Source of the DNA: Lachnospiraceae bacterium
Lineage (GTDB): Bacteria > Bacillota > Clostridia > Lachnospirales > Lachnospiraceae
Direction: 5' to 3'
Assembly (NCBI GenBank): GCA_018056425.1
Contig: JAGPFR010000002.1
Span: 44,990-108,989 of the forward strand
Length of the DNA stretch: 64,000 nucleotides
Shown here: piece by piece, positions 33,512-40,323 of the stretch
Layout of the letters: each line of letters opens with the position of its first letter
Position numbering within the stretch: the stretch's first letter is position 1
Position numbers and translations under genes: made by a program
Notes under the pieces: generated by a model
What the model saw: only the letters and a program-made list of their open reading frames with translations
What the model was told of the DNA's origin: nothing
The model's database searches: none

Positions 33512-34567
33512 TTACCAGTTTTCCAGAAGCTTTTCGATCCGTTCTATTTCTCCGGGGATGTAAAGCCCTCGGGAGCATTCTTTCATACATATTTTTTCAT
33601 CACATGTCTTACAATGTTTTGCATTCTCCATAAGATCCATTTTCAGTTTATTGACCGCCCAGAATTCTTTTCCCAGATGAAAATAATTATACTGACGAAA
33701 AGACGTATGTATCTCATGTCCGTAATGGCATACACACTTCTCGCATCTGTCACATCCTATCGGATCAAACTTCTGACTCAGTCTGTTCAGCACTTCTTCG
33801 AATTCAAAATGTATAAAGGGATATTCCTCCGCAAAGGCCTGCTTTTCCTGTTCAAATGTTCCTATACCCAAAAGTGCACACGAGAACGGATATTCAAGCA
33901 CTCCGCCTATAAGTTCTGTTACCGAAAAAGGACCTATGAGAAGTCCTGCGGCATAAACTTTATTTAAAATAAATCCCTTCTGCCTGAAAGCTTCCTCTTC
34001 ACGGATACGCTCCAGCATGCCTCTTTCCAGTATATTGCCGCTTCCCTGAAGAACATCCACGCGTTTATCAAGTACAGCACGATACAGGACACTGTAATAA
34101 TGAGATGCTATTCCTGTGAAACCGATCTTGCCTTCTCTTTTCAGATCGTAGAGTGCATCAAGCGCTCCGCCCTTTGCAAACACCTCATCGGCATTACTGT
34201 CATCAACCTGATGTACAAAATAGATATCCGGTTTTGTACCGAGATTTTCGGCTGACCTCAGCACCTCGCGGTATATATCTCCGCCGCCGTAAAATCTTGC
34301 TTTGTCTGAAATAATGATCTTAGACCTGTCTATAGTCCTGGCAAATTCACCGAGCTTAAACTCCGCATCCCCGTATTCTTCGGGAATTGCCGTGTCGAAG
34401 AAGTTACATCCGTGATCGAACGCCTTCCGCATGATGACAACAGCCGTATCCGTATCGGGACTGAAATATTCGGGAAGCACCGGCACATGTCCGCTTAAGA
34501 TCGGGATCGTTCCAAATCCCAGCTCAGATACTTTAAGCCCGGTCATTCCAAGTTCTCTGTATCTCAT
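33512..34567 (-). CDS. Aldo/keto reductase with C-terminal Fe-S motifs
   Basis: A 351-residue protein with an N-terminal aldo/keto reductase barrel (MTGLKVSELGFGTIPI; the usual Asp-Tyr-Lys positions lie in NFFDTA, EEYGDAE and ISDKARFY) and a C-terminal cysteine-rich tail (about 270-335): CDRCEKCVCHYG and CKTCDEKICMKEC. Related AKRs from anaerobes carry [4Fe-4S] clusters there and probably act as electron carriers or flavin-linked redox enzymes. Its ATG overlaps the LRR gene stop by one base (TAATG), so the two are translationally coupled. Substrate unknown. Confidence 0.88.
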   Translation of the reverse strand: MRYRELGMTGLKVSELGFGTIPILSGHVPVLPEYFSPDTDTAVVIMRKAFDHGCNFFDTAIPEEYGDAEFKLGEFARTIDRSKIIISDKARFYGGGDIYREVLRSAENLGTKPDIYFVHQVDDSNADEVFAKGGALDALYDLKREGKIGFTGIASHYYSVLYRAVLDKRVDVLQGSGNILERGMLERIREEEAFRQKGFILNKVYAAGLLIGPFSVTELIGGVLEYPFSCALLGIGTFEQEKQAFAEEYPFIHFEFEEVLNRLSQKFDPIGCDRCEKCVCHYGHEIHTSFRQYNYFHLGKEFWAVNKLKMDLMENAKHCKTCDEKICMKECSRGLYIPGEIERIEKLLENW

Positions 34568-37500
34568 TAATATCTGCCCCCAGCTTCATCCGCGGTGTAT
34601 CTGTGAATGCGGATATTATCACACCAGGCAAAGGCCGTATCATCTACCTGTGTATTTTCAGAAATAAATACCTCTTCCAAGCCTTCGCAAAATGCAAAGC
34701 TTTCTGCTTCTAATACCTTCACGCCTGCGGGGATCATAACCTTCTTAAGTGATTTACAGCGAAAAAATGCTCGCTCCGGAATCTTCTCCAATTTCTCTGA
34801 GATCTTTATTTCCTTAAGATTACTGCAATGCTCAAAGCATCTGCTTCCCATTTCACCAAGCAGATCAGACAGATCTATCGACTCAAGCGACTGGCATCCG
34901 GAGAAAGCAAGTGCACCGATGCCCTTAACACAATCCGCTCCGCTTACAGTCTTTAACCATTTGCTGTTTTCAAAAGCAGACTTTCCGATCCACTCAGTAT
35001 CCTTAGAAAGAGTAATGCTCTCCAGTAGATGACAATCCTTATAAACTTCATCTCCGACAGATTTTATTCCGTCCGGAAAGTTCAGATTGATGATATTTCC
35101 GGTACTTTCAACTAAATTGTTATCATCATCAAGTTTAAAGCAGTTGATACATTCGGAGAAGATTCTGTTAATAAGTTCCGGATATTCTGCATTTTTAAGA
35201 TCAGAAACTTTCGTCAGCCTGTACTCTCTTCCTTCGTGATCTGTGATCTTCTTCAGATTTATACAGTTACGAAAAGCCAGAGCTTCAATGGCAAGCTTTG
35301 CACAAGGAAGAACCAAATGGGTAATATCGGCATTTCCCGCAAAGCACCAGCCGGCAATCTTTTTAACGGAAGCAGGGATCGTGACTTTGCCTTTACATCC
35401 GGCGCCATCTATAAGTATTCCGTTTATGATCACCATCTCGGATTTCTTACGCTGATCATCAAGCCATGCTGTCTGGGCAAATGCATGACTTCCAAATGCA
35501 TTGACGGATTCAGGAATAGTGATCTCTTTTAATCTTATATGATCTCTGAATACGTCCGCTGCGATTTCCCCGATATCTCCTGGAACAGTAACCCGCACCG
35601 AATCCTGTAAATACCCGATAAGTCTTTTTCCGTCACGTATGTCATAACAGGAGTATATCGATGAGATTAGTTCTCTTACAGCTTCCGGATAGATATTTCC
35701 CAACCGGTTTAATCCGTCCGAGAATTTATCAAATTCATATTCGGTGCCATCAAAAACGATGGTTTTTATCTGTGTACTTCCGATAAATACACAGCTTTTA
35801 AGCACTGTCCGGGAAGTGATCTCCACTGTCTCAAGAGATGCAAGATCTGCAAAGGCATGATATCCGCACTCCGTATCATCAAGAGTAACTTTCTTAAGAG
35901 AGTCGCATCTTTCAAATGCACGAGCGCCAATAGCTTTTATACCTGTGAAATCAAAAGCCTGAAGATTGATGCACTCATCAAAGCATCTTGCCTCCATTTT
36001 CGACAATTCTTTTGCTTCGAAAATGCTAAGCTTAAAACAGCCTGCAAAGCTCTCCGCGGGAAGATTAGTGATTCCGGTCAAATGAACCTCTTCAAGATTT
36101 CTGCAATAGGCAAAGATTCCGGTGCCGATCTCTTTAACATTCAGCGTTACTTTTTTTAATCCCGGGCAATTGGAAAATGCCTTGCTTTCTATAATGCAAT
36201 CCGGAGAATCTATAACGATCTCCTCAAGGTCATGGCATCCCGCGTAGGCATACCTGCCTATCCGCTTTACTCCGGACAGATCAAGAGTTTTAATTCCTTC
36301 TTTATTAGCATATGAATAAGGTGCGATATACTCATCGCCTTTCTCAAAAAAAGAATCCTCATCATAAGCAGCCTTTTTACAATTCTTCTTGAGATCATCT
36401 TCAATCTCAGAAAAATTTCCTGCGCGATAAAATGCATAATGATGGATCACAGCCTTATCAGGCATAGGCTCAAAAACAGGCAGTACAAAACACCTTCTGA
36501 ATGCATACTCTCCGATATACTCTATGCCTTCGGGAATATTTATCTTAAGAAGCTTCTTGCACTCCGCAAACGCCTCTCTTTCTATGCGCTTAAGCGTACC
36601 CGGAAGCACGACATTCTGTAATGTCAGACATCCTTCGAATGCCTGCTCTCTTATCTCCCTCAAATTCCCCGTGCAAGTCACAGCTTTCAGTCTTTCGTTT
36701 CCGAAAAAACATCTCTCACCGATCACTTCAACCTCTTTAGGAATCCTGACCTGCTCTTCATCGCCCAGATACCTTACGAGGATTCTTCCACTGATATAAA
36801 AATCACCCAGAACCTGATCCCTGATTCTCTGCACAAGATCATTTGAAGACTCTTCCTCAAGTGAATAATCATCTTCTCCGATATGAACAGTTTTGAGATT
36901 ACAGCATCCTCTGAATGCTTTTTCGTCGGTGATCAGTTCGTTATTTCGAATAAACACTTCTTCCAGACTGATACAGTTCAGGAAAGCATTCGCTCTGATC
37001 TCGCGAAGGGACTTGGGAAAATCTATACTGATTATTCCTTTTTTATCAAAAAAGCAGCTCTTCCCGATGGCAGTTATACCCTCCGGCAAGACTACTTTTT
37101 TCAGATTGATGTTAAAAGAAACCAGAACACCGTCCTCAATCTGAAGAGAATGATATACGCTCCCTGCAATTGCCTTGATCACATCGGGATAAGCCGAATG
37201 TGAATTCATAGACTCTATAAGATTTCCAATCTCGTATTCTTTTCCGGAAAGGGATATTTTGCTCAGGTTAATGCATCCCTCAAATACTTCATCCGAAAAA
37301 TTGGAGAAATCCACTTTTTCATTAATTAACAGTTCCCTGAGTGACAGGTTATGGGAAAAGACTGCTCTTTTGATCAACTCAGGTCCTTCCATGACCACTT
37401 TACGAACTCCGTCACAATAAAGGAAAGCGTAACTTCCGACGCTCTTTACCGAATCCGGCAAAACGATCTCTTCCAAGCAGTGACATCTGTGGAAAGCATA

Positions 37501-37743
37501 TTCTCCTATCTCTTTTAAATCCGAGGGAAAATTCACCTCATTAAGCTGTCTGCATCCTTTAAAAGCACGGTCGCCAATCCTCTTAACAGACTGCGGAAGA
37601 TGCACTTTAAGAAGGTGTGCCATACCTTTGAACGCATCATCTCCTATTTCCGTCACTCCTTCAGGAACCGTAACTTCCGTATCAGATCCATTGAAGGATT
37701 TAAGTATTCCGTTTTCTATTTCAAATTCCATACAGGCAGGCAT
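34567..37743 (-). CDS. Large LRR_5 (BspA-like) leucine-rich repeat protein
   Basis: A 1058-residue protein built of dozens of 20-25-residue BspA/TpLRR-type repeats (for example IGDRAFKGCRQLNEVNFP and IGEYAFRRCFVLP). The solenoid is broken by four similar helical linkers near residues 167-205, 291-321, 666-705 and 839-875, each with a YP-x-hydrophobic or short helical block followed by an I-x-DG-x-L-type restart. There is no signal peptide, membrane segment or sorting signal, unlike most BspA-like surface proteins. The ATG at 37743 with GGAG inside the end of dus is preferred over one seven codons earlier. Function unknown; protein binding is likely. Confidence 0.88.
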   Translation of the reverse strand: MPACMEFEIENGILKSFNGSDTEVTVPEGVTEIGDDAFKGMAHLLKVHLPQSVKRIGDRAFKGCRQLNEVNFPSDLKEIGEYAFHRCHCLEEIVLPDSVKSVGSYAFLYCDGVRKVVMEGPELIKRAVFSHNLSLRELLINEKVDFSNFSDEVFEGCINLSKISLSGKEYEIGNLIESMNSHSAYPDVIKAIAGSVYHSLQIEDGVLVSFNINLKKVVLPEGITAIGKSCFFDKKGIISIDFPKSLREIRANAFLNCISLEEVFIRNNELITDEKAFRGCCNLKTVHIGEDDYSLEEESSNDLVQRIRDQVLGDFYISGRILVRYLGDEEQVRIPKEVEVIGERCFFGNERLKAVTCTGNLREIREQAFEGCLTLQNVVLPGTLKRIEREAFAECKKLLKINIPEGIEYIGEYAFRRCFVLPVFEPMPDKAVIHHYAFYRAGNFSEIEDDLKKNCKKAAYDEDSFFEKGDEYIAPYSYANKEGIKTLDLSGVKRIGRYAYAGCHDLEEIVIDSPDCIIESKAFSNCPGLKKVTLNVKEIGTGIFAYCRNLEEVHLTGITNLPAESFAGCFKLSIFEAKELSKMEARCFDECINLQAFDFTGIKAIGARAFERCDSLKKVTLDDTECGYHAFADLASLETVEITSRTVLKSCVFIGSTQIKTIVFDGTEYEFDKFSDGLNRLGNIYPEAVRELISSIYSCYDIRDGKRLIGYLQDSVRVTVPGDIGEIAADVFRDHIRLKEITIPESVNAFGSHAFAQTAWLDDQRKKSEMVIINGILIDGAGCKGKVTIPASVKKIAGWCFAGNADITHLVLPCAKLAIEALAFRNCINLKKITDHEGREYRLTKVSDLKNAEYPELINRIFSECINCFKLDDDNNLVESTGNIINLNFPDGIKSVGDEVYKDCHLLESITLSKDTEWIGKSAFENSKWLKTVSGADCVKGIGALAFSGCQSLESIDLSDLLGEMGSRCFEHCSNLKEIKISEKLEKIPERAFFRCKSLKKVMIPAGVKVLEAESFAFCEGLEEVFISENTQVDDTAFAWCDNIRIHRYTADEAGGRY

Positions 37744-37744
37744 T

Positions 37745-38671
37745 TTATTCTCCAAATATTTCACCGCAGATCTTTCTGAGATCCGGGATATTTCCGCACT
37801 TGTACAGACTCATCTTGTACTGCTTGGTTCCGGGAAGTTTTTTCATAAAATAAGAAGCAAGCTTTTTGATATATGTAAGAACATAGAGTTCATCAAAACA
37901 TTCTTCTGTAATATCTATCTGTTCCATGATGAGATCACGTTTACTTACTGTGATATTACTTCCTGTCAGTTCCGAGAAAATAAGCGGATTTTCAAAACCG
38001 CATCTGGCAAGCATCACCCCGTCGGCACCGGTCTTATCCATCATCTCCCGGGCTTTTTCCGCAGAATCTATTCCGCCGTTTGCAAATACCGGGATATTTA
38101 CGACGGACTTGGCAAGCTTTATGTAATCATACAGGGGCTCACCTTCATACATCATATTTCTGGTCCTTCCGTGAACCGTTATCATATCCGCACCGGAGTC
38201 TTCACACTTCCTTGCAAACTCTTCGATCACGATGCTCCGCTCATTCATGCCGATACGGCATTTAACGGATACGACCTTTCCGCTTCGCTTGCAGCTTTCA
38301 ATTATCCTGGAGGCTGTGGGCAAATTGTTAAGAAGTGCGCTGCCTTCACCGGACTTCACTACGTTTGGAACGGGGCATCCCATGTTGATGTCTATGACAT
38401 CAAAGGGCTGCAGCCTGTCGCTCATAACCGCCCTTTCAAAGACTTCCGGAACAGAGCCGAGGAGCTGTACGCATTTTAACTTCTCCCTGTCATCCGTATA
38501 TAACAGCCTTGTAGTGGCGTTATCATTGTATTTGAGGCCGTCGGAGCTGACCATTTCGGTATATGCCGAGCCTGCTCCGAGTTTATAAACCATAAGACGG
38601 AAAGGAAAACATGTATAACCTGCAAGCGGTGCCATGAGTACATTGGACTTAAATCTGATCCCGCCGACCAT
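37745..38671 (-). CDS. dus: tRNA-dihydrouridine synthase
   Basis: Flavoenzyme that reduces uridines in the tRNA D-loop. Motifs are MAPLAGYTCFPFR (FMN site), DINMGCPVPNVVKSGEGSALL with the catalytic cysteine region, VHGRTRNMMYEG and NGGIDSAEKA. The ATG at 38671 gives the usual short N-terminus (308 residues); an ATG at 38713 (322 residues) would make an almost leaderless message because a perfect extended -10 lies just before it. The gene heads an operon that runs through the LRR, AKR, fRMsr, nnrD and rsuA-type genes with gaps of 1 to 37 bases or small overlaps. Confidence 0.93.
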   Translation of the reverse strand: MVGGIRFKSNVLMAPLAGYTCFPFRLMVYKLGAGSAYTEMVSSDGLKYNDNATTRLLYTDDREKLKCVQLLGSVPEVFERAVMSDRLQPFDVIDINMGCPVPNVVKSGEGSALLNNLPTASRIIESCKRSGKVVSVKCRIGMNERSIVIEEFARKCEDSGADMITVHGRTRNMMYEGEPLYDYIKLAKSVVNIPVFANGGIDSAEKAREMMDKTGADGVMLARCGFENPLIFSELTGSNITVSKRDLIMEQIDITEECFDELYVLTYIKKLASYFMKKLPGTKQYKMSLYKCGNIPDLRKICGEIFGE

Positions 38672-38728: not shown

Positions 38729-38746
38729 TTTTATGCCCAAAAGGTC

Positions 38747-38775
38747 TTGACTTTCACACTCCCTGAAAATAGAAT
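38747..38775 (+). promoter_or_regulatory. Promoter of the mgtE leader RNA
   Basis: TTGACT (38747-38752), a 17-bp spacer and TAGAAT (38770-38775): five of six consensus bases in each box. Predicted start near 38782, giving a leader of about 190 nt before mgtE. Confidence 0.78.
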
Positions 38776-38781
38776 TAGGGC

Positions 38782-38973
38782 GAAACTAAAGCGGTTTCAA
38801 ATCTATCGGAAGGGTGGTGATCATATGACAGGTGACAGTCGAAGTACCGATTCTGTTCCCCGAAGTACACATTATATGATCACGGCATTCTTATGCCTCA
38901 CCACCCGGAATTCCCTTTAAAAGAGCATTCCCTTATGTGGGGCGGGCTTTGCCGTCTCGAAGGGTGATGCAAA
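38782..38973 (+). promoter_or_regulatory. Structured mgtE leader RNA, candidate regulatory element
   Basis: About 190 nt with several possible helices. First, a small hairpin at 38782-38798. Second, a three-way junction: GGGTGG (38812-38817) with CCACCC (38901-38906), TGATCATAT (38818-38826) with ATATGATCA (38874-38882), and GGCAT-loop-ATGCC (38884-38897). The junction buries the ribosome site and start codon of a 31-codon reading frame. Third, GCAT-T-CCCTT (38925-38934) pairs with AAGGG-TG-ATGC (38960-38970) and masks the mgtE ribosome site. The conserved pieces of the M-box Mg2+ riboswitch are not present. It is probably a Mg2+- or translation-responsive switch; the mechanism is an inference. 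Confidence 0.6.
38825..38920 (+). CDS. Leader peptide of mgtE (31 residues)
   Basis: An ATG with GGAAGGG and GGTGGTG upstream opens a 31-codon frame ending in TAA at 38918-38920, 53 bases before the mgtE ATG. The peptide has two RST tripeptides (encoded by a GAAGTAC direct repeat), one proline, and a hydrophobic middle (HYMITAFLCL) followed by TTR. It has no homologue I can name. Its ribosome site and start codon lie in predicted helices, which fits a regulatory upstream reading frame. It could still be a chance frame in a structured RNA. Confidence 0.5.
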   Translation: MTGDSRSTDSVPRSTHYMITAFLCLTTRNSL

Positions 38974-40323
38974 ATGGAAGAAAAGAATGTATTTGACGAG
39001 CTTCTTACTCTGCTTGAAAACAAAGAGTACGCGAAGCTCCGTGAGATTTTGTCCGAGCACAACGATGCGGATATCGCAGCGTGGATCGAAGAGCTGGACG
39101 AAGAAAACATGCCGAAACTTTTCCGTATCCTGACCAAAGATCAGGCTGCGGATGTTTTCGCATACCTTGATGTTGATCTCCAGCAAAAGATCATAAGTGT
39201 AATGTCCGATAAGGAAGCTGCGGGGATCATCGATAACCTGATGGCCGACGATGCTGCCGACCTGATGGAAGAAATGCCGGCCAATGTCGTAACAAGGATC
39301 CTTGCCAAGGCAAGTCCCGACACCAGACGTGAGATCAATCAGCTCCTCCGCTATCCCGAAGACAGTGCGGGAAGCATAATGACCGTGGAGTATGTCGATC
39401 TTAAGGAGAGCTCAACCGTAAAAGAAGCAATAGAGCGTATAAGAAGAGTCGGCGTAGATTCCGAGACCATCAATGTATGTTACGTTCTTGACAGCGGCAG
39501 GCACCTGATCGGAACCGTTGCGTTAAGATATCTCCTTTTGTCCAAAGATGATGAGATAATCGGGGACATAATGCATGAAAATGTCATTGCTCTCAACACT
39601 CTGATGGATCAGGAAGAGGTTGCATCACAGTTCAAAAAATACGACTTCACCACAATGCCTGTAGTCGATAATGAAAACCGTCTCGTCGGAATCATCACAG
39701 TCGACGATATCGTAGACATCATGGAAGAAGAGGCTACCGAGGACATGGAAAAAATGGCAGCTATTCTCCCTTCCGACAAGACATATATGAAGACCGGTGT
39801 TCTCGAGACATATAAAAAGAGAATCCCCTGGCTCCTTCTTCTCATGGTAAGTGCCACATTCACCGGAGCGATCATCAAATCATTTGAAGATGCCTTAAGC
39901 GTATGTGCCGTACTCGTAGCTTATATCCCGATGCTGATGGATACAGGCGGTAACGCAGGAGGACAGGCATCCGTTACAGTCATCCGTGGTCTTTCGCTCG
40001 GTGAAATAGAATACTCGGATGTGCCAAAGGTTATGTGGAAAGAAATACGTGTTGCGGTCTTCTGCGGACTTACACTTGCTGCGGCAAACTTCGTCAAGCT
40101 TATGGTATTTGACAGGATCGGTTTCCTCGTTGCATTAACGATCTGCCTTACACTTATTGCTGCGGTGCTCATGGCAATGCTCATCGGATGTATGCTTCCC
40201 GTCGGAGCAAAGCGCCTCGGCTTTGACCCCGCCGTCATGGCAAGTCCCTTCATCACCACCATCGTCGATGCACTTTCGCTTCTGGCATATTTCAGAATTG
40301 CAACAATGATACTTAAATTATAG
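38974..40323 (+). CDS. mgtE: Magnesium transporter MgtE
   Basis: A 449-residue Mg2+ channel. It has the N-terminal superhelical MgtE_N domain (about 1-125), two CBS domains (about 130-250) that sense cytosolic Mg2+, the plug helix, and a five-helix pore domain (about 280-449) with the signature PMLMDTGGNAGGQAS and an acidic selectivity region (ASPFITTIVDALSLL). AAGGGTGATG precedes the ATG and is masked in a predicted hairpin. Expression is probably set by the leader RNA. No other gene follows before the bidirectional terminator. Confidence 0.97.
   Translation: MEEKNVFDELLTLLENKEYAKLREILSEHNDADIAAWIEELDEENMPKLFRILTKDQAADVFAYLDVDLQQKIISVMSDKEAAGIIDNLMADDAADLMEEMPANVVTRILAKASPDTRREINQLLRYPEDSAGSIMTVEYVDLKESSTVKEAIERIRRVGVDSETINVCYVLDSGRHLIGTVALRYLLLSKDDEIIGDIMHENVIALNTLMDQEEVASQFKKYDFTTMPVVDNENRLVGIITVDDIVDIMEEEATEDMEKMAAILPSDKTYMKTGVLETYKKRIPWLLLLMVSATFTGAIIKSFEDALSVCAVLVAYIPMLMDTGGNAGGQASVTVIRGLSLGEIEYSDVPKVMWKEIRVAVFCGLTLAAANFVKLMVFDRIGFLVALTICLTLIAAVLMAMLIGCMLPVGAKRLGFDPAVMASPFITTIVDALSLLAYFRIATMILKL

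Follow-up and report, generated by a model that had tools for sequence, protein, structure and literature searches.

MgtL, the leader peptide of mgtA, comprises 17 residues in full. Ribosomes drop off at its EPDP motif when Mg2+ is low, according to the accessible part of PMC11282234. Excerpts of PMC8092293 describe mgtQ of the Salmonella mgtCBRU operon (8 codons, between mgtC and mgtB, with Asp2 and Glu5) as an ORF with acidic codons that destabilise the ribosome, in a leader where 1:2 and 3:4 pairings alternate with 2:3; mgtP is reported there to sense tRNA-Pro. Going by the accessible parts of these two papers, Mg2+ leader ORFs have been described in enteric bacteria (PMC8092293, PMC11282234). 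Elsewhere, mycobacteria have an M-box/uORF system that is built on the M-box (PMC12810186, in excerpt), and the mgtE motif SRC-65-1, a riboswitch candidate of Thioalkalivibrio only, has the ribosome site in a stem (PMC11109978, in excerpt). The open-licence literature of PubMed Central gave, among the matches listed, no description of the mgtE leader ORF treated below.

Here we describe this ORF upstream of mgtE in a Lachnospiraceae bacterium, in a window (the whole stretch of DNA analysed) of 64,000 nucleotides. It probably represents a new leader-ORF control of Mg2+ transport, mgtQ/mgtL-like in its working, and we claim descent from neither. As with mgtQ, a short ORF with early acidic codons precedes a Mg2+ transporter gene under putative translational control, and the transporter's ribosome site lies inside a 3:4 pairing, for which we infer a 2:3 alternative in the mgtE leader (mgtQ after excerpts of PMC8092293). 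The mgtE leader is unlike mgtQ in its 31 codons, its own promoter, the MgtE channel family of its target and its CGA-AGU core. With mgtL it shares a leader ORF before a Mg2+ importer gene and acidic residues together with prolines; some relatives have MgtL-like cores (DDPLPRSRS, DNPLPRSRS), a likeness from which we claim no homology. Whereas mgtL works by Rho-dependent transcription termination, the hidden element here is the mgtE ribosome site, and the second helix of the leader (P2) is followed by no T-run. The M-box (RF00380) also occurs upstream of mgtE, including 4 of 20 chosen relative loci, but is absent from the window and from 31 genomes of the genus. SRC-65-1, compared by its description in the accessible part of PMC11109978, is likewise a structured mgtE leader with the ribosome site in a stem.

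The mgtE leader and its predicted fold

The elements of the locus, in window positions, are as follows.

38747..38775, + strand: sigma-70-type promoter TTGACT-17-TAGAAT, -35 box TTGACT at 38747-38752 and -10 box TAGAAT at 38770-38775 (read directly)
38808..38828, + strand: segment 1, the 5' strand of helix P1, with the leader-ORF ribosome site and AUG (folding, pairing comparisons)
38809..38822, + strand: extended ribosome site of the leader ORF, GAAGGGTGGTGATC (read directly)
38825..38920, + strand: leader ORF of 31 codons, MTGDSRSTDSVPRSTHYMITAFLCLTTRNSL (reading frame, coding signature)
38837..38869, + strand: conserved peptide core SRSTDSVPRST, with two CGA-AGT pairs at 38840-38845 and 38861-38866
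38872..38914, + strand: segment 2, the 3' strands of P1 (38872-38883, 38902-38906, 38911-38914) and a side hairpin (38884-38897)
38925..38970, + strand: helix P2 (38925-38934/38960-38970 and 38938-38945/38952-38959), covering the mgtE ribosome site
38937..38943, + strand: putative segment 3, GTGGGGC, with GCCTCAC (38895-38901) as alternative partner instead of segment 4
38961..38968, + strand: mgtE ribosome site, AGGGTGAT (read directly)
38974..40323, + strand: mgtE, a magnesium channel of 449 aa, ATG at 38974 (TIGR00400, PF01769, PF03448, CBS)

The mgtE product scores 477.6 bits against TIGR00400 (cutoff 232.75). About 190 nt of leader lie between promoter and gene, and the close relatives inspected show a similar TTGAC...A-rich -10 layout at the same place upstream of mgtE. 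In distant relatives the ribosome site of the leader ORF reads, for example, GAAAGGTGGTGGTT or GAAAGGAGGTGATC. As for the surroundings, a dihydrouridine synthase gene (PF01207; 37745-38740, minus strand) is divergent from mgtE, its listed TTG start falling a few bases from the mgtE -35 box; beyond it, 34567-37764 (minus strand) encodes a 1065-aa protein of BspA-type leucine-rich repeats with 10 PF13306 stretches. Convergent with mgtE is a 351-aa frame with a terminal LysM domain (PF01476; 40383-41438, minus strand).

The minimum-energy fold of 38795-38985 (-63 kcal/mol, z = -3.34) is equalled by 0 of 200 shuffles. In this predicted fold P1 pairs 38808-38828 with parts of 38872-38914, so that both the ribosome site and the AUG of the leader ORF are covered, and 38884-38888/38893-38897 makes it a three-way junction; P2 pairs 38925-38934 with 38960-38970 and covers the ribosome site of mgtE. 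The promoter, the leader of about 190 nt, the 31-codon frame, the three-way junction and the second hairpin named in the preliminary description are all recovered from sequence and fold. It had also rightly held the M-box to be absent: an Rfam scan of the whole window at gathering score gave no match, to a Mg2+ element or otherwise, and at E<=10 the stretch 38740-39000 yielded no M-box and a single chance match, to snoTBR17 (9.6 bits, E 8.2). RF00380 was found in none of the 31 genus genomes, with positive controls in B. subtilis and L. lactis. With scores below gathering in the window and in those genomes, M-box identity is ruled out for the leader. An intrinsic terminator downstream of P2 was rejected as well, the T-run being absent from the sequence as read. 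A small hairpin within the loop (ACAG...CTGT), compensatory in L009 and broken in L045-L048 by eye, was left out of the model.

M-box riboswitches in mgtE orientation were seen at four of the 20 chosen loci mentioned above (L175:63-216, L230:224-383, L238:230-398 and L243:485-654 (-)). A short ORF lies 3' of the M-box in L175, L230 and L238, and L175 carries a Clostridiales-1 RNA (RF01699, 110 bits; L175:260-417) between M-box and mgtE.

Leader frame and helices among relatives

We searched for mgtE in the 31 genus genomes, in one genome collection, which gave 417 relatives and from which 80 loci were retained, and in 299 family genomes, 143 of which had an mgtE match at E<=1e-120; 100 further upstream regions were fetched. 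In 24 of the genus genomes there is a close mgtE whose upstream DNA can be read, and 21 of these have a leader ORF in front of the gene: 12 are of the window type and 9 of an overlapping type, whose frame overlaps the mgtE start, and 3 have no leader. Among the remaining seven of the 31, one upstream region ends at 32 nt and six genomes have a distant mgtE paralogue only. Family loci with MgtE at least 68% identical (L116-L143) match listed leaders in at least 16 of 28 cases, and more distant ones in at least 11 of 99 (identity taken over the first ~100 residues); both counts are lower bounds because matching was exact to listed leaders. L130, for instance, is counted as lacking a leader and shows a ribosome site and a TTG-start frame, and the L126 genome has the ribosome-site pattern directly upstream of mgtE. 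The leader is rarer upstream of more distant mgtE genes.

For the comparisons below, 181 distinct upstream regions were scanned and a frame was picked in 99, of which 19 were set aside by eye as other families (among them L053, which nevertheless has window-type core copies farther upstream); the final set of 82 consists of 22 window-type and 60 overlapping-type leaders. Starts were assigned by hand in L009, L025 and L046, the last having GTA at the start position, and L025 was omitted from the P2 and proline-codon pairing comparisons and from the count of frame ends. The window type was defined by the pattern [DE]S[RP][SN] and at least 83% MgtE identity, the overlapping type by an Asp/Glu/His/Ser/Thr...Pro pattern. 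Since the groups were picked by these peptide patterns, pattern frequency is no evidence; the patterns played no part in the pairing and CGA counts. It should be noted that the sequences are related and their counts are not independent events.

The pattern AAAGGTGGTGGTTN{0,8}ATG has 22 exact matches in the 299 family genomes, 16 of them adjoining the 5' side of mgtE; its reversed control has 13, so the six matches away from mgtE are within chance. The pattern RAAGGWGGTGRTYN{0,8}ATGN{24,54}CGAAGT, which misses the window copy, was found in 4 of the 299 genomes, in all 4 upstream of mgtE (reversed, it gives 3). In the four genomes looked at, a second mgtE-like gene had no such leader in the ~400 nt upstream. 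Comparison across genomes shows a predicted leader family dedicated to mgtE. The window type itself is narrow, as a DNA search with its 86-nt core hit 5 of 81 genomes in a sample of one related genus and 3 of 17 in another. Leader ORFs of other layouts (MEGRSRKMEADAHPEPEA..., MDAGSSSGSTVGRSS..., MDADGTSSGTTTVP...) were observed upstream of more distant Lachnospiraceae mgtE genes (L184-L233) and may be further leader-ORF classes.

By the same kind of comparison, what lies directly upstream of this Mg2+ transporter gene is a conserved short and putatively translated frame with a coding signature and a core fixed at the codon level. Over codons 2-15 of 16 distinct window-type sequences, pairwise and hence non-independent counts give 321 synonymous to 278 non-synonymous differences in the leader frame; the two alternative frames give 99:500 and 78:530. 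Variable columns number 5, 6 and 7 at codon positions 1, 2 and 3 (of 14 each), with no third-position excess, so what carries the coding signal is how a small number of codons change. GTT CCC CGA AGT is identical in 16 of 16 sequences and the first CGA is present in 15; neighbouring codons of the core vary, mostly synonymously (Asp as GAC or GAT, Thr mostly as ACN, Ser codons too). In L008, L010, L011, L024 and L085 the peptide ends in another frame (ADLPHHP or IQPHHP replaces AFLCLTTRN), and the P1 strand CTCACCACCC is retained despite the frame change, which indicates that the front is conserved as peptide and the back as RNA. Five leader peptides tried matched no NCBIfam family, and the only Pfam match among them was sub-threshold and in one peptide (PF24273, E 0.073); the window peptide has no Pfam or NCBIfam match at E<=1.

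The peptide had initially been described as unlike MgtL. This holds for the window copy, in which D4, D9 and P12 make the core a weak match to EPDP, but not for many relatives, whose cores read D-x-P-x-P-(G)-R-S (in a group partly chosen by such a pattern). The likeness escaped the first reading because the window copy is a reduced form, DSVPRST after DSRST.

To judge the helices, the pairing energy of each strand with its own partner was compared with that for partners from relatives whose leader starts had at least three differences, and with decoys. For P1 of the window type (n = 22, mean z -1.76), 16 leaders beat the median (decoys 11 and 13) and 13 fall in the best 5% (decoys 3 and 3); for P1 of the overlapping type (n = 60, mean z -1.95) the figures are 59 (decoys 25 and 33) and 29 (decoys 4 and 4). 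Mean z in the four P1 decoy runs was -0.29 to +0.18. For P2 (n = 22) the mean z of -1.85 stands against +0.30 and +0.09 for decoys, with 20 leaders beating the median and 14 in the best 5%. Own P1 pairs include GATCGTATGA/TCATACGATC (L014), GGTTGCAT/ATGCAACC (L022), TCACATGA/TCATGTGA (L025) and GGTTTTTTATG/CATAAAAAATC (L077). There are exceptions: L031, L041-L043 and L050 do no better than relatives in P1, and L050 and L009 fail in P2. Comparison shows that the predicted helices P1 and P2, one spanning the start region of the ORF and the other hiding the target site, pair best with their own partners, and decoys do not.

Pair counts in the 22-sequence alignment, which is imperfect in L045-L051, are mixed but in favour of P1 and P2. 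Paired cells reach 75.8%, against 73.3% in shuffled alignments (0 of 500 reach the value) and 40.2-56.9% with slid partners, and the covariation score is 0.201, where shuffling gives 0.162 (0 of 500 as high) and sliding no more than 0.115. Both partners have changed in 36 cells; shuffled alignments have 24.3 such cells (1 of 500 as high), but a +1 slide has 38. Pairs with a double change (12 versus 10.8 shuffled, 166 of 500 as high) and extra pair types (40 versus 40.1) are at the shuffled level. Taken with the codon signature, the own-against-other pairing bears out the conservation of peptide and helices in relatives.

Another pairing, of proline codons (e.g. CCTCTCC) with the mgtE ribosome site in the overlapping type, was tried and fails (n = 59, mean z -0.04, 21 beat the median; decoys -0.23 and -0.25). 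By eye it had looked good in L112 and L113.

The CGA-AGT codon pair

CGA and AGU are usually decoded by wobble pairing. Of the 730 Arg codons in 40 long ORFs of the window 2.1% are CGA, and of the 1079 Ser codons there 10.8% are AGT; 135 mgtE genes have 127 CGA among 2662 Arg codons. A simple rule, which selects the first Arg that follows P, G, E, K, I or H and precedes S, T, N, A or I, yielded an Arg for 72 of the 82 leaders and none in 10. It was CGA in 65 (CGA-AGT in 57) and another codon in 7; 57 is the cleaner number, because in some leaders (by eye L015, L017, L019, L020, L092 and L094) the Arg selected lies outside the core. Of the CGAAGT occurrences, 37 of 38 in window-type and 42 of 43 in overlapping-type leaders share the frame of the start. 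A CGA-decoding tRNA was not among the 30 scanned of 33 tRNA matches in the assembly, which is 91% complete; the tRNA-Arg found among those 30 loci are UCU, CCU and CCG.

Among 18 overlapping-type upstream regions that share no 20-mer, CGAAGT occurs in 14, where arrangements of the same letters have a mean of 1.1 and a next-highest count of 6. The other 126 upstream regions, which include some duplicates of both types, have CGAAGT in 26, GCAGAT in 26 and TGACAG in 24 (mean 9.4), and with GCAGAT equally frequent CGAAGT is not special by count in this distant set. After removal of 10 duplicate occurrences from it, 15 of 20 CGAAGT occurrences follow, in frame, a start that has a ribosome site. Leader ORFs that are otherwise dissimilar (MEGRSRKMEADAHPEPEA, MDSSGSTSGRSS and others) and precede more distant mgtE genes likewise carry CGA-AGT in frame.

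A candidate attenuator and its rivals

On balance we favour a leader-ORF attenuator of mgtE translation initiation that works like Salmonella mgtQ/mgtL. Some gut bacteria apparently hold a conserved tiny ORF with its start hidden in a hairpin, and how well ribosomes read it decides on channel synthesis. We infer pausing or drop-off at the core, 2:3 refolding and Mg2+ as the signal. In the idle leader, 1:2 pairing would hide the ribosome site and AUG of the leader ORF and 3:4 pairing the mgtE ribosome site, the OFF state. A ribosome finishing a window-type leader would sweep segment 2 and leave mgtE off. One that pauses or drops off at the core (Asp...Pro-(Gly)-Arg-Ser, CGA-AGU) would keep segment 1 open, so that segment 2 could hold segment 3, the ON state. 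In the 81 cases measured, leader frames end between 65 nt upstream and 83 nt downstream of the mgtE start, and 57 of 59 overlapping-type frames extend past it, so in that type finishing ribosomes should cross and occlude the mgtE start, and those stopping early would leave it free. A common rule would then serve both layouts: mgtE is off when the leader is completed and on when reading fails at the core.

By analogy with mgtL and mgtQ the trigger would be low Mg2+, weakening the elongating ribosome. It is the likeliest one in view of the target gene, the acidic and proline-containing core and the drop-off at EPDP in MgtL; as signal, Mg2+ is thus argued from the downstream gene and from analogy. 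It is conceivable, if doubtful, that the sensor is the CGA-AGU pair itself after Asp/Pro, low Mg2+ making the ribosome pause or fall off there, with Mg2+ measured through decoding. Under that same doubtful reading neither an aptamer nor the peptide alone would gauge Mg2+.

The ON state calls for GCCTCAC to pair with GTGGGGC in the window, which would free the mgtE ribosome site. Own 2:3 pairing has a mean energy of -19.3 kcal/mol, decoy segments giving -7.3 to -10.9, and a mean z of -1.30 against shuffled segments; in the own-against-other comparison mean z is -0.26 (14 of 22 beat the median, 1 in the best 5%), without significant covariation in the 22 window-type sequences. In an equilibrium model the mean openness of the mgtE site is 0.26 with no ribosome; it becomes 0.46 when a ribosome sits at codon 14, and 0.40 when it has reached the stop. 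The paused state exceeds the idle one by 0.1 in 14 of 22 leaders and the finishing one by 0.1 in 11 of 22, and with a footprint longer by 6 nt paused exceeds finishing in 4 of 22. The window copy stays shut (0.12, 0.18 and 0.18 for idle, codon 14 and stop). Equilibrium folding thus lends the predicted refolding weak support, and next to none in the case of the window copy. With no measurable 2:3 covariation, a modest gain over shuffles and weak opening, we keep the 2:3 pairing as a putative element. Co-transcriptional folding could favour it, segment 3 emerging before segment 4.

The supply of Arg, Ser or Pro is a live rival as the signal, though we regard it as improbable. Such an attenuator, comparable to trp/his leaders or to mgtP, would sense charged tRNA-Arg, tRNA-Ser or tRNA-Pro, or the slow reading of CGA-AGU, and not Mg2+. 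CGA is rare (2.1% of window Arg codons), yet CGA-AGT is found in 57 of 82 leaders, and the pair stays where neighbouring codons vary. However, 17 of 60 distinct overlapping-type leaders are without CGAAGT in their first 96 nt, each leader has one or two such codons and the downstream gene is a Mg2+ channel. Supply sensors usually carry more of them than one or two. An attenuator of the trp/his type was rejected: the frame contains no codon run, the downstream gene encodes a Mg2+ channel and P2 has no T-run behind it.

A direct Mg2+ riboswitch, with Mg2+ bound by the three-way junction and the reading frame playing an incidental or secondary part, is in our view distinctly improbable, even though a strong conserved three-way junction lies 5' of a Mg2+ channel gene and the M-box is absent from the 31 genus genomes. 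The conserved part of the junction loop keeps to the reading frame, with mostly synonymous changes, and this speaks for translation and not for an aptamer. In overlapping-type relatives a helix is seen around the ORF start. The preliminary description had proposed that either translation of the peptide or folding of the junction by Mg2+ gates mgtE; peptide and helices proved conserved, and Mg2+ folding of the junction as direct sensor found no support. Constitutive coupling, the leader ORF fixing the level of mgtE translation with no signal, agrees with frame ends close to the mgtE start, but is likewise distinctly improbable in that simple coupling does not need a core constrained at the codon level.

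The leaders described here form a leader-ORF family of the Lachnospiraceae that is tied to the MgtE channel, in a genus where the M-box was not found (31 genomes). If Mg2+ is what it senses, a short-ORF Mg2+ gauge has arisen outside enteric bacteria, with another transporter. With its rare codon pair almost invariant, the leader would also lend itself to a precise test of whether Mg2+ can be sensed by decoding as such.
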